Assembly: GCA_016870595.1 (NCBI GenBank)
Contig: VGBI01000021.1
Span: forward strand, 1 to 33,482
Length of the DNA stretch: 33,482 bases
Direction of reading: 5' to 3'
DNA from: Actinomycetota bacterium
GTDB taxonomy: Bacteria > Actinomycetota > Acidimicrobiia > IMCC26256 > PALSA-555
A program made the translations under genes and the position numbers. This document shows positions 4,051-29,910 of the stretch, piece by piece. Numbering within the stretch: position 1 is the first letter of the stretch; each line of letters begins with the position of its first letter. The notes beneath the pieces are model-generated. The model did not search any database, was not told the origin of the DNA, and saw only the letters and a list, made by a program, of their open reading frames with translations.

Positions 4051-5178
4051 GTGCCCGATGCCCGCCCGGTCGTGGTGGTGGCCGGCCTCGGCGACACCGG
4101 CGTCCTCGTCGCCACCCGCCTGGCCCGCTCCCACCGGGTCGTGGCCGTGGCCACCCGGCCCGGGCTGGTGAGCGGCCAGGAGCTCGGCACCCGCCTGGTC
4201 GACCCCGAGCGGTGGCGGCGCACCTACCTCGTCCCCTACTCCCGGTTCCGTCGCCTCGACCGGGTCGAGCGCCACCACGGGCGCATCACCGCCGCCGACC
4301 TCGACGCGTCCACCGTCGTGGTCGCCCACCCCGACGGCACCACCACCACGCTGCGCTACGACGCGCTCGTCGTGGCCACCGGTGTGACCAACGGCTTCTG
4401 GCGCCACGACCGGGTGGAGGACCTCGCCGCGGCCGAGGCCGGCCTCGACGCCGTGCGGGCCGATCTCGCCTGGGCGCGCACCGTGGCCGTGGTCGGCGGT
4501 GGCGCCACCGGGGTGAGCGTGGCCGCCAACCTCGCCCGGGCCCGCGGCGCCGACGTCCACCTCTACGTGAGCGGCGACGCGCCCCTCCCCGGCTACCACC
4601 CCCGGGTGCGCCGCTGGGCCGCGGGGGTGCTCGCCCGCGACGGGGTCACCGTGCACCCCGGGCACCGGGCGGTGGTCCCGGCCGGCTTCACCGGCGACCG
4701 GCCCACCCACGAACCGGTCGAGTGGTCCACCGGCCAGGATCCCGTCACCGCCGACGTCGTGCTCTGGGCCACCGGCGCGGTGCGCCCCCACAGCGACTTC
4801 CTCCCCGCCGCGGTCCTCGACCCCGACGGCTTCGTGCGGGTCGACGCGCACCTGCGCGTGCCCGGCCACCCGAATGTCTTCGCCGTGGGCGACGTCGCCG
4901 CGAGCGACCCGCTGCGCAGCTCCGCGCGCAACTGGGGCTACCGGGTGGTGGTGACCAACGTGCGCCGCACGCTGGCGCGCGCACCGCGTCGTCTCGCCCG
5001 CTTCCGCGCGCCGGAGTGCCGCTGGGGCTCGGTGCTCGGCCTGCGCGACGACGGCCTCACCGTGGTCCAGCCCCGGGGCGGTCGCTTCCGGCTCCCCCGC
5101 CGAATCGCCGAGCCGCTGCTGTTCCGCGGCTTCGTCGACCGCGTGCTCTACGGCGGTCTGCGGCCCCCCGCTCCCTGA
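4051..5178 (+). CDS. FAD-dependent NAD(P)-type oxidoreductase (NDH-2/AMID-like)
   Basis: GTG start at 4051 with AAGGA upstream; VVVVAGLGDTG, VVATGV, VAVVGGGATGVSVAANLAR, NVFAVGDVAA (FAD motifs). Confidence 0.8.
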   Translation: MPDARPVVVVAGLGDTGVLVATRLARSHRVVAVATRPGLVSGQELGTRLVDPERWRRTYLVPYSRFRRLDRVERHHGRITAADLDASTVVVAHPDGTTTTLRYDALVVATGVTNGFWRHDRVEDLAAAEAGLDAVRADLAWARTVAVVGGGATGVSVAANLARARGADVHLYVSGDAPLPGYHPRVRRWAAGVLARDGVTVHPGHRAVVPAGFTGDRPTHEPVEWSTGQDPVTADVVLWATGAVRPHSDFLPAAVLDPDGFVRVDAHLRVPGHPNVFAVGDVAASDPLRSSARNWGYRVVVTNVRRTLARAPRRLARFRAPECRWGSVLGLRDDGLTVVQPRGGRFRLPRRIAEPLLFRGFVDRVLYGGLRPPAP

Positions 5179-23336: not shown

Positions 23337-23406
23337 TGGATGCGCGGCGGGATCCGGGGCGCGCGCGGACATGCGCGGCGGTCACGGCGGTGCGAGACTG
23401 CCGCCG

Positions 23407-23826
23407 ATGCATCCCGACCTTCCCCGTCCCGCCCCCGGGCCCGTCGAGGCCCCGTTCTGGGAGTGGTGCCGCCGCCACGAGCTGCGCCTCCAGCGCTGCA
23501 GCGACTGCGGCACGTTCCGCTTCCACCCCCGGCCCCGTTGCCACGCGTGCACGTCGGCCGCGGCCGACTGGACGCCGGTGGCCGGCACCGGCACGGTCGC
23601 CTCGTACACCGTGCTGTACCCGCCGGTGCTCCCGGCCTTCGCCGACCGGGTGCCGTACAACGCCGTGGTCGTGCAGCTCGACGAGGGGCCGTTCATGGTG
23701 AGCAACCTCCTCGGGGTCGACAACGAGGACCTCGAGGTCGGGATGCGGGTCGCGGTGACCTTCGTCGACGTCGACGACGAGTACGCGCTGCCCCAGTTCC
23801 GCCCAGTCGGCGCAGAGGCGGCGTGA
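23407..23826 (+). CDS. Zn-ribbon/OB-fold protein (DUF35)
   Basis: RCSDCGTFRFHPRPRCHAC rubredoxin-like zinc ribbon then GTVASYTVLYPPVLPAFADRVPYNAVVVQLDEG OB fold. Confidence 0.85.
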   Translation: MHPDLPRPAPGPVEAPFWEWCRRHELRLQRCSDCGTFRFHPRPRCHACTSAAADWTPVAGTGTVASYTVLYPPVLPAFADRVPYNAVVVQLDEGPFMVSNLLGVDNEDLEVGMRVAVTFVDVDDEYALPQFRPVGAEAA

Positions 23827-25034
23827 GCGCGCCCGACCGGATCGACGTCGTGAGTGGCCGCAGCGCGATCGCCGGGATCGGCGAGACCGTCTACGGCAAG
23901 AACCTGGGGCGCAGCGAGCTCGACCTCGCCTGCGAGGCGATCGTCGCGGCGTGCGCCGACGCCGGCTTTCCGGTGCAGGAGGTCGACGGCATCGTCTCGT
24001 ACCACATCGAGCAGGTGTCGGAGGAGGCGATCGTCCACGCGCTCGGGCTCGAGAACTGCTCGTTCATGGCCCGGACCACGTCGGGGGGCGGTGGGGCCGC
24101 CAGCGTCGTCGGGCTCGCCGCCGTCGCCGTGGCCAGTGGGCAGGCCGAGTCGGTGATCGCGTTCCGGGCCCGCAACCGCTCGAAGGGCGCGTCGTACGGC
24201 GGTGACCCCAACCAGGGCGGACGGCCCTGGGAGAAGGCGGGCCGCGCGGTGAGCGGGGGGAACCAGTGGCACCACCCGTTCGGGGTGGCGTCGCCGACCC
24301 ACGAGATGGCGCTCATCGCCCGTCGGCACATGGCCCTGTTCGGCACCACCGCCGAGCAGTTCGGCACGCAGTCGGTGGCGCAGCGGTTCCACGCGTCGCA
24401 CAACCCGCGCGCCATCATGCGCACGCCGATCACCCTCGACGACTGGCACAACGCCCGGATGATCGCCGACCCGATCCGGCTCGTCGACTGTTCGCTCGAG
24501 AACGACGGCGCCACCGCCATCCTCGTCACCACCCCCGAGCGGGCCCGCGACCTCCCCCAGCCCCCGGTCACGGTGCTCGCCCAGGCCATGGGCGCGGGAC
24601 CGATCCACGTGGCGCTGGCCGACTACTTCCGCACGTCGTCGAGCTTCGACGAGCGCGACTTCGCGGGGCGGCACATCGCCCGTCAGCTGTTCGCGCGGGC
24701 GGGATGCACCCCGGCCGACGTCGACGTCGCGGCGATCTTCGACCACTTCACCATGGCCGTGCCGCTCAGCCTCGAGCAGTACGGCTTCTGCGGTCTCGGC
24801 GAGGGCGGCCCCATGATCGAGTCGGGCGCGACCCGCTGGCCCGACGGGGCCCTGCCCGTGAACACCCACGGCGGCAGCAACGGCGAGGGCTTCATCCACG
24901 GCGCCAACCACGTGCCCGAGGCCGTCCGCCAGATCCGCGGCACGTCGACCTGCCAGGTCGCCGGGGCCGAGGTCGCGCTCGTCACCGGCGCGATCAGCGA
25001 CCCGGCCGGGGCGGTCCTCCTCGGCCGCGGCTGA
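23823..25034 (+). CDS. Thiolase-fold protein (Ltp/SCP2-thiolase-like), paired with DUF35
   Basis: AIAGIGETVYGKNLGRSELDLACEAIVAACADAGF...VNTHGGSNGEGFIHGANHVPEAVRQIRG...CQVAGAEVALVTG; GTG start overlaps DUF35 stop by 4 bp. Confidence 0.85.
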   Translation: MSAPDRIDVVSGRSAIAGIGETVYGKNLGRSELDLACEAIVAACADAGFPVQEVDGIVSYHIEQVSEEAIVHALGLENCSFMARTTSGGGGAASVVGLAAVAVASGQAESVIAFRARNRSKGASYGGDPNQGGRPWEKAGRAVSGGNQWHHPFGVASPTHEMALIARRHMALFGTTAEQFGTQSVAQRFHASHNPRAIMRTPITLDDWHNARMIADPIRLVDCSLENDGATAILVTTPERARDLPQPPVTVLAQAMGAGPIHVALADYFRTSSSFDERDFAGRHIARQLFARAGCTPADVDVAAIFDHFTMAVPLSLEQYGFCGLGEGGPMIESGATRWPDGALPVNTHGGSNGEGFIHGANHVPEAVRQIRGTSTCQVAGAEVALVTGAISDPAGAVLLGRG

Positions 25035-26241
25035 CCCTCCGAAGGAGACACCCCCGATGGCCGACACCCCGTTCGCCGCCGTGCTGTTCGACTTCGGCGG
25101 GGTGTTCACGCAGTCCCCGTTCGAGGTGGTCCGGCTCCACGGCGAGGAGGTGGGCGCCGATCCGGAGCTCATCCTCTCGGTCCTGTTCGGTGCCTACGAC
25201 CGTGACGGGGACCACCCGTGGCACCGGCTCGAGCGGGGCGAGGTCGGCATCGACGCTGCGCTCGCCGAGATCCGGGCCCTGGCCGACGCCGCCGGGCTCG
25301 AGGTCGACCCGTTCGCCGCCTTCGCCAAGTTCGGCACGGGTGGGGCGATGGCCGAGGCGATGGTGGCGCGCACCCGGCGCCTGCGCACCGCGGGCTACCG
25401 CACCGGGCTGGTCACCAACAACGTGCGCGAGTTCGGCGAGGGCTGGCGCAGCCTGATCCCGGTCGATGACCTGTTCGAGGTCGTGATCGACTCGAGTCAC
25501 GCCGGGGTGCGCAAGCCCGATCCCCGAATCTTCGCCCTCGCCACCGATGCCCTCGGGGTCGATCCCCGGCGGTGCGTGTTCCTCGACGACTTCCCCGGGA
25601 ACGTCGCTGCCGCCGAGGCCCTCGGGATGACCGGCATCGTGGTGGGCTCCGACCGCCACGCGGCGATCGCCGCGCTCGACGCACTGCTCGGCGCCGGCTG
25701 ACCCGGACGCCCCGCCGCGGGAGCGCACCGTCCAGGCCGCAGCCACGAGGATCGTCGTGACCACGCCGACGGCGATCGCCGCGCCACCGGCGAGCACCGA
25801 CCGCACGTCGGTCCCGGCGGTGAGGGCGTGCAGCGTCGCGAAGGCGAACAGGCCGTAGCTGGCCAGGTGGACCTGCCGCCACAGCCGGCGCGGGAGGTGC
25901 TTCTGGGCGAGCGAGGTCAGCTCGACCGCGAGCATCACGTAGAAGGCCACGATCCCGAGCGCGACCGCGAGCGGCTTCCACGCCGAGGCCAGGGGCACGA
26001 GCAGTTCGACGGCCCCGAACGACGTGAAGTTGTCGGCCACCAGCGCACCCATGTGCACGAGCACGAACCCGACGGCGAGCCCACCGAGGAAGCGGTGCAC
26101 GCCCAGCAGCCACCACGGGCGCGCCCACCGCTTCAGGATCCGGGTCGCGTGGAGCACGCCCCAGAGCATCGAGGCGAGGAGCAGCCCCCACGCCACGATC
26201 CCGGTGGATCGGGCGACGTACCAGGCCAGGTGTTCGGTCAT
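24994..26241 (-). CDS. Ferric-reductase-like transmembrane (heme b) protein; recognisable domain about 25700-26241
   Basis: MTEHLAWYVARSTGIVAWGLLLASMLWGVLHATRILKRWARPWWLLGVHRFLGGLAVGFVLVHMGALV...HLASYGLFAFATLHALTAGTD. First in-frame stop only at 24994. Confidence 0.7.
   Translation of the reverse strand: MTEHLAWYVARSTGIVAWGLLLASMLWGVLHATRILKRWARPWWLLGVHRFLGGLAVGFVLVHMGALVADNFTSFGAVELLVPLASAWKPLAVALGIVAFYVMLAVELTSLAQKHLPRRLWRQVHLASYGLFAFATLHALTAGTDVRSVLAGGAAIAVGVVTTILVAAAWTVRSRGGASGSAGAEQCVERGDRRVAVGAHHDAGHPEGLGGSDVPGEVVEEHAPPGIDPEGIGGEGEDSGIGLAHPGVTRVDHDLEQVIDRDQAAPALAELAHVVGDQPGAVARGAQAPGARHHRLGHRPTRAELGEGGERVDLEPGGVGQGPDLGERSVDADLAPLEPVPRVVPVTVVGTEQDREDELRIGAHLLAVEPDHLERGLREHPAEVEQHGGERGVGHRGCLLRRVSRGRGGPPRPGR
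25057..25701 (+). CDS. HAD-IA family hydrolase
   Basis: AVLFDFGGVFT, TGLVTNN, SHAGVRKPDPRIF, CVFLDDFPGNVAAAEALGM; GAAGGAG RBS. Confidence 0.9.
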   Translation: MADTPFAAVLFDFGGVFTQSPFEVVRLHGEEVGADPELILSVLFGAYDRDGDHPWHRLERGEVGIDAALAEIRALADAAGLEVDPFAAFAKFGTGGAMAEAMVARTRRLRTAGYRTGLVTNNVREFGEGWRSLIPVDDLFEVVIDSSHAGVRKPDPRIFALATDALGVDPRRCVFLDDFPGNVAAAEALGMTGIVVGSDRHAAIAALDALLGAG

Positions 26242-26281
26242 CGGGGTTCCTCGGGACTCAGGGCGGATTCGGAGGGAACGA

Positions 26282-27214
26282 TCAGGCGGCGGAGGAGGCG
26301 AAGGCGGCGACCGCGCCGACGGGGTGGACCGCGCCGGTGTCGTCGGTGCACCAGCCGGTCACGCCGTGGTGGGCGAGCAACGCGGGCCCGGCGACCGGGC
26401 CGGCGACGAAGGCGGCCTTGGCCAGCACCTCGGCCCACCACGCCCGGCCCGCGAGCACCGTCACCCCGGCGAGGCCGCTCGTGGCGCAGGCGCCGGTGGC
26501 GGGGTCCACGAGATGGTGGCGCGTCCCACCGGGCCCACCCCACGTGCGCTGCGTCGACCAGGTCGAGGCGACCGCCCCACCGTCGAGGCGGGTCTCGGTG
26601 AGGGTCGCCCCGGTGTGGGGATGGTCGATCGCGATGCACCAGCCGTCGGCGTCGGGGGCGTCGCCCTCGACCCGCAGGTCCCCGCCCACGTTCACCAGCA
26701 CGCCCCGGGCCCCGGCCCGCATCAGGGCGTCGGCGACCAGATCGGCGGCGAGGCCCTTGCCGATCCCGCCGGGATCGACGCGCACCCCGGGCGGCAACCG
26801 CACCGCGCCGACGACGTGATCGGTGACGATCCCCGCGCAACCGGGCGCCGGGATCGTCACCGTGACCGGGTGGGGGGCCGTCCGGTCGATCGCGTCGAAG
26901 TCACGGTCGTAGCCGAGGGCGACGACCGCGTCGAGCACGGTGGGGTCGAAGCGCCCGTCGGTGCGGTGCCATCCGTCCACCGCGTGCTCCACGAGACGCA
27001 GGGTGTCGGCGTGCACCACCACCGGGGCGCCGGTCGCGGCGTTGCAGCGCGAGATCTCACTGTCGGGCCGGAACCGGCTCCAGCGTCGTTCGAGCTGCTC
27101 CAGTCGGGCCCGGGCGTACGCGATGCCGTCGGCGGCCGCGTCGGGCGTGTCGGCCACCACGATCACGTGGGCCGTGGTGCCCATGACCCGGAACCCGAGT
27201 TGCGCGTCGGCCAC
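26282..27214 (-). CDS. apbE: FAD:protein FMN transferase (ApbE family)
   Basis: VDPGGIGKGLAADLVADALMRAGARGVLVNVGGDLRVEG, GGAVASTWSTQRTW, HHLVDPATG; GTG start at 27214 just after the upstream stop. Confidence 0.85.
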   Translation of the reverse strand: MADAQLGFRVMGTTAHVIVVADTPDAAADGIAYARARLEQLERRWSRFRPDSEISRCNAATGAPVVVHADTLRLVEHAVDGWHRTDGRFDPTVLDAVVALGYDRDFDAIDRTAPHPVTVTIPAPGCAGIVTDHVVGAVRLPPGVRVDPGGIGKGLAADLVADALMRAGARGVLVNVGGDLRVEGDAPDADGWCIAIDHPHTGATLTETRLDGGAVASTWSTQRTWGGPGGTRHHLVDPATGACATSGLAGVTVLAGRAWWAEVLAKAAFVAGPVAGPALLAHHGVTGWCTDDTGAVHPVGAVAAFASSAA

Positions 27215-27216
27215 GG

Positions 27217-27672
27217 TCAGCTCCCGCGGCTGCGCGTCTGCGGGGCGCGCGACTGGCTGCTCGGGTTGGTCCCGCCGGCGGAGGGGTTGCCCGGAACCGC
27301 CCGGTTGCCGGGCGCGACCCCGGTGCCCGCCCGGTTCCAGGCCCCGCCCATCGGCACCGACCGGGGTGCGGAGGGCCGGGCCCGGCGGTACTCGTCGTCG
27401 CGGTCGTCGCGGTCGTCGTTGCGATCGCGGTCGTCGTCGTGGTCCCGGGCCCGGTCGCTGCGGCTCGCAGCGGTGGCGTCGGTCCCGCCGGTGACGGCGC
27501 CACCGGACCCGGCGATCACCCCGGTGAGGAAGGCGGTGGCGCCGACGGCGACGCCGCCGACCACCCACCTCGAGGTGCGCAGCCCGGCCCGGCGGCGTTC
27601 GCCGGCGGTGGGGGCGTCCGGCACCGCCGGGGCGGCGGGGTCGGTCGGAGGGTGCTCGGTGGGCTCGGTCAC
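27217..27672 (-). CDS. Small single-TM protein with Asp/Arg-rich polyampholytic segment
   Basis: WVVGGVAVGATAFLTGVIAG TM helix then RSDRARDHDDDRDRNDDRDDRDDEYRRARPS and Pro/Ser-rich tail; directly upstream of ApbE. Confidence 0.6.
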   Translation of the reverse strand: MTEPTEHPPTDPAAPAVPDAPTAGERRRAGLRTSRWVVGGVAVGATAFLTGVIAGSGGAVTGGTDATAASRSDRARDHDDDRDRNDDRDDRDDEYRRARPSAPRSVPMGGAWNRAGTGVAPGNRAVPGNPSAGGTNPSSQSRAPQTRSRGS

Positions 27673-27760
27673 GGGCCACTCCCTGGTGATGGGCGCTGCG
27701 TTGCGCCGCTCCCCAGACAACCCGGTCGGGCGCCCCGCGCCAAGCCCACACGCTGAAGGA

Positions 27761-27788
27761 TTCTCAGATCCGGCGCCCGACTCTCAGG
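27761..27788. promoter_or_regulatory. Candidate operator: two TCTCAG direct repeats 20 bp apart
   Basis: ttctcag at 27761 and ctctcag at 27781, upstream of the ApbE operon; spacing of two helical turns. Confidence 0.3.
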
Positions 27789-27861
27789 CACCCCACAGGC
27801 CCCGGGGACCCGCCGGGCCCGACGCCCACACTGCGATCGGATCAGGCCCGGTCGGAGCCGA

Positions 27862-29910
27862 TCAGGCCGGTCGCAGCTCCACCGGGATGGCCGACTGGCA
27901 GACCATCCCGGTGAGCGGATCGACCGCATCGGTCACCGAGGTGAGGCGACTGACGTTGGTCGCAATCCAGCCGTGGGTCAACGACACCACCCCCGGACGC
28001 AGCCGGGGATCGATCCGCACCACGCCGCGCACGCGGCCGTGCGCACCCACGAGGTCGACGGGGTCACCGTCGGCGAGCCCTCCGGCCGCGGCGTCGTCGG
28101 CACCGATGCGCACCCACGGCGGGTCCTCGGGCCGGGCGGCCGACTCGTAGCGGGCCGAGTTCATGCTCCGGAGCTGCCGGCGGGGCACGAGCACGGTGGC
28201 GGGGCGCGCCGCGTCGAGCGACGCGAGCTCGGCGTCGAGCCGCTCCACCAGCGCCGCCGGTGCGAGCCGGAACCGACCGTCGGGCAGCACCTCGTCGTGG
28301 ACCCAGCCGAACTCGGGCGGGGGGCCGGGCAGGCCGCGCGGGCCGGCCGCGACCACGGCGGCGCCGTCGGCCCCGGCCCGGTCGGCGAGGCGCACCAGCA
28401 GCGCGCGTCCGTCGGTGGCGTCGGGGTCGAGCCCGTCGAGGACGTCGAGGTCGAGGCGACGGCCGAGCTCACCGAGGATCCACCACACCGGTCGGCGCTC
28501 GGCGGCGGGCGGGACCACCGCGTCGGTGTACTGCGTGCCGGTCGTGAGCGAGATGCCCTCGACCATCGGGAGGTCGGCCCGCTCCATCTGCGCGGTCGCG
28601 GGCAGCACGTGGGTCGCGAGCCCGACGAGTTCGTGGTCGACGACGTCGGCCACCGCGAGCACGTCGAGCGAGGCCAGCGCGGCCGCGGTGCGGTCGGGGT
28701 CCGGGAACGCGACGAGCGGGTTGCCGCCGAGGATCACCAGGGCGCGCAGGTTGCCCGCCTCGATCTCGTCGACCATCGCCGCGCACGGGTACTGCCCGGC
28801 CCACCGGGGCAGGTCGGGACGGCTCGGCGGCCCGGGCTGGGTCCAGCCCTCGGGGGGTGAGGGCCGGGGCACCCGGCCCCGGAACGGGAAGCACGTCCCG
28901 GGGTTCACCCGCATGCCGCCCGGGCGGTCGAACGACCCGGTGATCGCGAGCAGCACCCAGCGCAGCCACGCGGCGACGAGCCCGTGGGGGTGCATGACCA
29001 CGCCGGTGCCCACGAAGGCGGCGATGCGGCCGGCCCGCCGGATCGCGTCGAGCAGGTCGCGCAGCCCTGCCGCGGGCACGTCGGCGGCGCGCGCCACCCG
29101 ATCGAGCGTGCAGGGCGCGACGACGCGCCGGAGGGTGGCGAGGTCGGCCGGGTCGGTGTGGGTCGCGAGCTCGGCGGCGTCGGCCCCCTCGGCGAGCAGC
29201 TCACGCACGAGCCACGCCAGCACGAGATGGTCGGTCCCGGGCCGGATGGCGAGATGGCCGTCGGCCAGCGCCGCGGTCTCGGTGCGGATCGGGTCGAGCA
29301 CCCACAGCGCGCCCCCGGCCCGGCGGAACTCCCGGATGCGGGTGATCGGATCCGACAGCGCGGTGCCGTAGCCGTGCGAGACCACCGGGTTCGACCCGAA
29401 CACCACGAGCAGGCGCGAGTCCTCGGGGTCCCAGACGGTGGAGCACTGCATCTGCCCGGTGACCAGCTCGGCGGCCCGCAGGATCGCGGCGTTGTCGATG
29501 GTGGCGGGCGTGTAGCGCTGCTTCGTGCGCAGCAGCCCGAGGAAGCGCTCGGCGGTCATCCAGCCGTTGACGTCGTAGGCGAGCCCGGTGGCGAGGTACG
29601 CGCCGACCGCGTCGTTCCCGTGCTCGGCCCGCACCGCGGCGATGCGGGCGGCGAGGTCGTCGAGGACCGTCGGCCACGGGGCGGGGTCGGCGCCGAGCCG
29701 GGGGACGTCGAGCCGGTCGGGCCGGTGGTGGAAGGCCGGGATGGCCCGGCCCTTCGGGCACGTGTAGCCACGCGAGACCGGGTGGTCGGGGTCGCCCCGC
29801 ACCTCGAGCACCTCGCGCCCCCGGGTGGCGACCACGATCCCGCACGCGGCCGCGCAGATCCGACAGAAGCTCAGGTGCTCCTCGGACCCCCCGCGCTCCA
29901 CCGGGCGCAC
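27862..29910 (-). CDS. Molybdopterin-dependent oxidoreductase (MopB, 4Fe-4S)
   Basis: SFCRICAAACGIVV...SRGYTCPKGRA 4Fe-4S motif; GSNPVVSHGYG, DPIRTETAALADGHLAIRPGTD, LGGNPLVAFPD; C-terminal molydopterin-dinucleotide-binding-like region. Confidence 0.9.
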   Translation of the reverse strand: MRPVERGGSEEHLSFCRICAAACGIVVATRGREVLEVRGDPDHPVSRGYTCPKGRAIPAFHHRPDRLDVPRLGADPAPWPTVLDDLAARIAAVRAEHGNDAVGAYLATGLAYDVNGWMTAERFLGLLRTKQRYTPATIDNAAILRAAELVTGQMQCSTVWDPEDSRLLVVFGSNPVVSHGYGTALSDPITRIREFRRAGGALWVLDPIRTETAALADGHLAIRPGTDHLVLAWLVRELLAEGADAAELATHTDPADLATLRRVVAPCTLDRVARAADVPAAGLRDLLDAIRRAGRIAAFVGTGVVMHPHGLVAAWLRWVLLAITGSFDRPGGMRVNPGTCFPFRGRVPRPSPPEGWTQPGPPSRPDLPRWAGQYPCAAMVDEIEAGNLRALVILGGNPLVAFPDPDRTAAALASLDVLAVADVVDHELVGLATHVLPATAQMERADLPMVEGISLTTGTQYTDAVVPPAAERRPVWWILGELGRRLDLDVLDGLDPDATDGRALLVRLADRAGADGAAVVAAGPRGLPGPPPEFGWVHDEVLPDGRFRLAPAALVERLDAELASLDAARPATVLVPRRQLRSMNSARYESAARPEDPPWVRIGADDAAAGGLADGDPVDLVGAHGRVRGVVRIDPRLRPGVVSLTHGWIATNVSRLTSVTDAVDPLTGMVCQSAIPVELRPA

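Follow-up and report, generated by a model that had tools for sequence, protein, structure and literature searches.

Of 178 convergent overlaps longer than 60 bp, Palleja et al. (2008, PMC2478687) classed 124 as 3' extensions produced by a frameshift or by mutation of the stop codon, and left the other 54 as possibly real; most of these were conserved in very close species only. In E. coli, the phases seen in convergent overlaps fit well with what stop-codon mutation predicts (PMC2174442). Codon usage has been named as the primary source of long antisense ORFs, and ORFs lengthen as GC content increases (PMC3454372); Merino et al. (1994), as cited in PMC3454372, related such ORFs to codon usage in GC-rich genomes.

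The locus analysed here lies in a window of 33,482 nucleotides (the whole stretch of DNA considered, contig VGBI01000021.1), where a ferric-reductase-like gene (FRD) reads without a stop through a convergent HAD-family hydrolase gene. As in the 3'-extension overlaps (group iii of PMC2478687), FRD is longer at its 3' end than its orthologues, and the convergent HAD neighbour is of normal length. It differs from that group in the great length of the overlap (645 bp in HAD and a further 41 bp in a thiolase gene), and in that a close relative, genome G003, has the same loss in a different frame. Like the antisense ORFs of GC-rich genomes (PMC3454372), the FRD tail is open since the sense gene lacks TTA, CTA and TCA codons; in contrast to those free-standing ORFs, it is joined to a real upstream gene. 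The parts of the locus are:

25702..26241, minus strand: FRD-like membrane domain, residues 1-180, predicted multi-helix (Pfam, alignment A1, structural model, dN/dS)
24994..25701, minus strand: FRD C-terminal extension, 235 codons plus TGA, lying antisense to the whole HAD gene, in register, and overlapping the thiolase gene by 41 bp
25057..25701, plus strand: HAD-IA family hydrolase gene, convergent neighbour (Pfam PF00702, E 1.3e-17)
23823..25034, plus strand: thiolase-like gene (Pfam Thiolase_C_1), with a start deduced from the GTGA that overlaps the upstream ORF
26282..27184, minus strand: ApbE-family gene upstream of FRD (Pfam PF02424, E 5.8e-54), limit placed where the Pfam match begins
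26247..26252, minus strand: GAGGAA, ribosome-binding-site-like, 5 nt before ATG 26241, read from the sequence
25699..25706, minus strand: junction at which G003 has 193 bp extra, with CGGG (4 bp) common to both ends (blastn of both loci, G003 linker sequence)

The FRD frame runs on the minus strand from ATG 26241 to the TGA at 24996-24994, leaving 415 codons open for a product of 415 aa. The original prediction had described a frame from 26241 to 24994 passing antisense through all of HAD (25057-25701), and every coordinate checked was correct. Its heme-membrane part of about 180 aa, said to end near 25700, was recognisable to about residue 180 (25702), and the tail of about 235 aa proved to cover HAD and the final 41 bp (24994-25034) of the thiolase ORF, which ends at 25034. 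Downstream of 25702, the first minus-strand stops in the three frames were found at 25499, 25414 and 24996, with zero stops in all three frames between 25702 and 25500. A small frameshift restoring a nearby stop, already dismissed in the original prediction, is ruled out, as other-frame stops begin 200-290 bp into HAD. The HAD product itself is a Pfam Hydrolase/HAD_2 match of 214 aa, and its closest homologues in other genomes match over the full length of HAD, at about 206-214 aa, which is consistent with a HAD of normal length. Further upstream, an ORF at 27217-27720 of the minus strand overlaps the ApbE ORF on its 5' side in a different frame; its product would have a possible membrane segment with a D/R-rich stretch after it, and the ORF may be the real gene upstream of ApbE.

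Residues 13-135 of the FRD product matched Pfam PF01794 (Ferric_reduct) with an E value of 5.4e-5 and 23.7 bits, under the gathering score of 28, and its orthologue in genome G001 (75% identical) reached 30 bits, above the cut-off. On this similarity, the ferric-reductase-like label given originally appears reasonable but weak. Like the membrane proteins of PF01794, FRD is multi-helix with conserved H63, H125 and H138, putative heme ligands; it departs from them in its sub-threshold score and in its tail, which lies outside the family. H63, H125 and H138 were invariant in alignment A1, and H49 was present in every row covering it. A profile search of solved structures returned nothing.

The normal C-terminus, for which an alignment of orthologues had been proposed originally, was assessed on 42 distinct FRD homologues from the order and a public genome collection. 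Their length past residue 165 had a median of 34 aa, with most between 14 and 85 aa, and exceeded 100 aa in only four: this FRD (250), G003 (148), locus L077 (131) and locus L014 (215), the last being distantly related and different in its C-terminal region. In the same genus, stops were found 29 codons past the matched region in G001 and 10 codons past it in G002 (62% identical); both are too divergent downstream for the ancestral stop to be placed. One further homologue, L016 (G004:C289), carries a single in-frame TGA inside the membrane domain and is possibly a pseudogene or a sequence error. The original prediction had left a choice between a lost stop and a real convergent overlap. Stop loss is supported by the stops present in nearly all homologues, G001 and G002 included, and the overlap is physically real as assembled; as a meaningful coding region the overlap is not supported, given the change of frame between two species, the lack of constraint and an openness that follows from HAD codon usage.

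The closest relative, G003, comes from a separate assembly (record CAIUKV010000114, LaPlata-b_bin-0363), and its FRD is 94% identical. By blastn, its gene order is that of this genome (ApbE-FRD-HAD-thiolase), colinear at 91-93%, with a syntenic HAD that is 93% identical. Its linker between FRD and HAD is 193 bp longer than here and contains no stop in any forward frame, and its FRD frame enters HAD in a different register, ending within HAD at 313 aa. As 193 is not divisible by three, the two tails share no frame; as a protein region, the tail is therefore not conserved. The missing stop, which the original prediction had allowed might be peculiar to this assembly, is thus not unique to it, G003 also lacking any stop before HAD. 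The CGGG common to both ends of the 193 bp is compatible with a short deletion here and does not fix the direction of change. The linker carries an 18-bp tandem repeat (L037:2396-2461) that is absent from the window. Searches with the linker elsewhere in the genomes gave only short GC-rich matches, indicating that it is not a dispersed repeat, and a search for the junction DNA as a repeat within this genome gave only weak short matches.

Adjacency of FRD to HAD homologues was checked in three genomes: this one (G000), G003 and G001. In G001, FRD and HAD are separated by a cytochrome P450 gene. A relocated G001-type P450 was sought in G000, where none of the 21 P450 matches was closer than 38% identity; no relocated orthologue was identified there, and the gene may have been gained in G001 or lost in G000/G003. 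Between the P450 gene and HAD, G001 also carries a 33-bp repeat (CCCGACGATGCGCTTCTCACCGTCGATACCGGT) present three times head to tail at L038:4241-4346, with an inverted copy at 4368-4390, an arrangement resembling a small intergenic repeat element.

The FRD tail is exactly codon-in-register with HAD, its translation being that of the in-register reverse complement of HAD, and hence only TTA, CTA or TCA codons of HAD could stop the tail frame. Across the window, a set of 24 coding ORFs chosen mechanically contained 19 such codons in 9569 (0.2%), and the window codon usage gives an expected probability of about 0.65 that the frame stays open over 214 codons. The in-register antisense frame was fully open in 12 of 23 window genes, and open for at least 200 codons from the 3' end in 17 of 23, rates that are approximate because the genes were picked mechanically and a few calls are possibly wrong. 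In the other two antisense registers of the window genes, the median distance to a stop was 35 codons. Twenty HAD homologues of the order were compared: the six with at least 70% GC, this HAD and that of G003 among them, were all open in register, and low-GC homologues were often closed, one at 53% GC having seven stops. Codon usage of HAD thus explains the openness of the tail with no need for the FRD gene in the explanation, and the one unusual point is the absence from this FRD of the stop present in its homologues. An FRD homologue in another family of the order (L077, genome G027, locus at 78% GC) overlaps a convergent gene in register by 354 bp (2023-2376), at the 3' end of an rluA-like pseudouridine synthase gene (PF00849, E 3.4e-30). 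It is an independent case with a different neighbour, as expected if composition is the cause and there is no special link between FRD and HAD. Two other long antisense frames, of the chance kind found at this GC, are present in the window: a 708-aa ORF over the ApbE gene (26024-28150, plus strand) and a 596-aa ORF over the thiolase gene (23382-25172, minus strand).

A Pfam search of the tail gave no family match. GC by codon position in the tail (0.93/0.51/0.75) is the mirror image of that in HAD (0.76/0.48/0.94). In an AlphaFold2 model of the full 415-residue product, built with nine sequences, residues 1-178 were helical throughout with block pLDDT mostly 78-90, and the tail had pLDDT mostly 35-50 with a few uncertain helices, suggesting that it is probably disordered.

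Substitution rates were calculated by NG86, a simple method, on one genome pair (this genome and G003) in which the FRD frames differ, so the following values are weak when taken alone: dN/dS was 0.18 for the FRD domain, 0.17 for HAD, about 0.07 for thiolase and about 0.2 for ApbE. The value for the FRD domain indicates that FRD is not a decaying pseudogene. The dS of HAD was 0.20, inside the 0.15-0.26 range of its neighbours, and therefore gives no sign of a second constraint on HAD. Of the 45 differences in HAD, 33 fall on its third positions, which are the first positions of the tail frame. Residues changed in 40 of 214 positions of the tail frame (19%), compared to 10 of 180 in the FRD domain (5.6%). 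These comparisons agree with the change of tail frame between the species.

The reading that we consider very probable is that the lineage to which this genome and G003 belong lost the stop neutrally, so that FRD acquired an unselected C-terminal extension. It could be held against this reading that the stop is missing in both species, which is also readable as retention. An error of assembly or sequencing, by which either the 193 bp present in G003 went missing here or a base error struck the native stop of a gene that really ends near 25700, is improbable. The genome is a 165-contig draft, apparently a metagenome assembly, and the junction has a 4-bp microhomology, which speak for such an error. 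However, G003 is likewise stop-free in all frames from the FRD domain to HAD, a linker like that of G003 would shift the frame and give no stop before HAD, and the flanking genes are colinear with it; since the stop is also absent from a separately assembled genome, a single mistake of assembly is not the simplest explanation.

That the antisense tail is instead a functional, selected overlapping coding region, an overprinted domain, is very hard to credit. Its open frame would, going by the code, be translated together with the membrane domain, and long convergent overlaps are the one class with some accepted real cases (PMC2478687). Nevertheless, functional overlapping genes are recognised by a conserved frame and by constraint beyond that of the sense gene, and here both frame and length differ in G003, the synonymous divergence of HAD is not reduced, openness is expected by chance, and the tail has no family match and is predicted to be disordered. 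An equally slim chance attaches to a version in which the membrane heme protein recruited the antisense strand of the hydrolase gene as a useful C-terminal region, the tail being replaced between sister species. A role at the RNA level, with antisense RNA from the convergent FRD and HAD transcripts coupling the expression of the two genes and ribosomes kept on the transcript by the missing stop, would suit convergent genes that lack spacing and the finding of no intrinsic-terminator-like site in 24900-26400, but such a scan is weak in DNA this GC-rich, where almost none is expected by chance, and the P450 gene between FRD and HAD in G001 shows that the pairing is not conserved. We regard this role too as highly unlikely.

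Under neutral stop loss, the native stop of FRD would have been lost beside the convergent HAD gene in the lineage leading to this genome and G003; in DNA of about 75% GC, with a HAD gene free of TTA, CTA and TCA, the FRD frame would then run antisense through HAD until it meets the next stop past that gene. Translation to the end would yield an ordinary heme-membrane domain with a 235-residue tail, probably disordered and unselected. We infer that the loss happened once, in the common ancestor with G003, that the tail is translated, and that the variability of FRD C-termini allows it to be tolerated. The low dN/dS of the FRD domain despite the tail shows tolerance, not the absence of any effect.

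The FRD/HAD overlap is true but ordinary, a known and largely accidental outcome of GC-rich DNA, whose genes have hardly any stop codons on the opposite strand, and the tail is without sign of function. Its meaning is mainly one of caution in annotation: in actinobacterial DNA of 73-78% GC, loss of a stop next to a convergent gene can let the frame cross the whole neighbour, and long overlaps and proteins with odd tails are therefore to be expected in such DNA. Two sister species show the effect here, each in its own frame, a third lineage (L077) shows it independently, and the locus offers a small natural example of a tolerated C-terminal extension.
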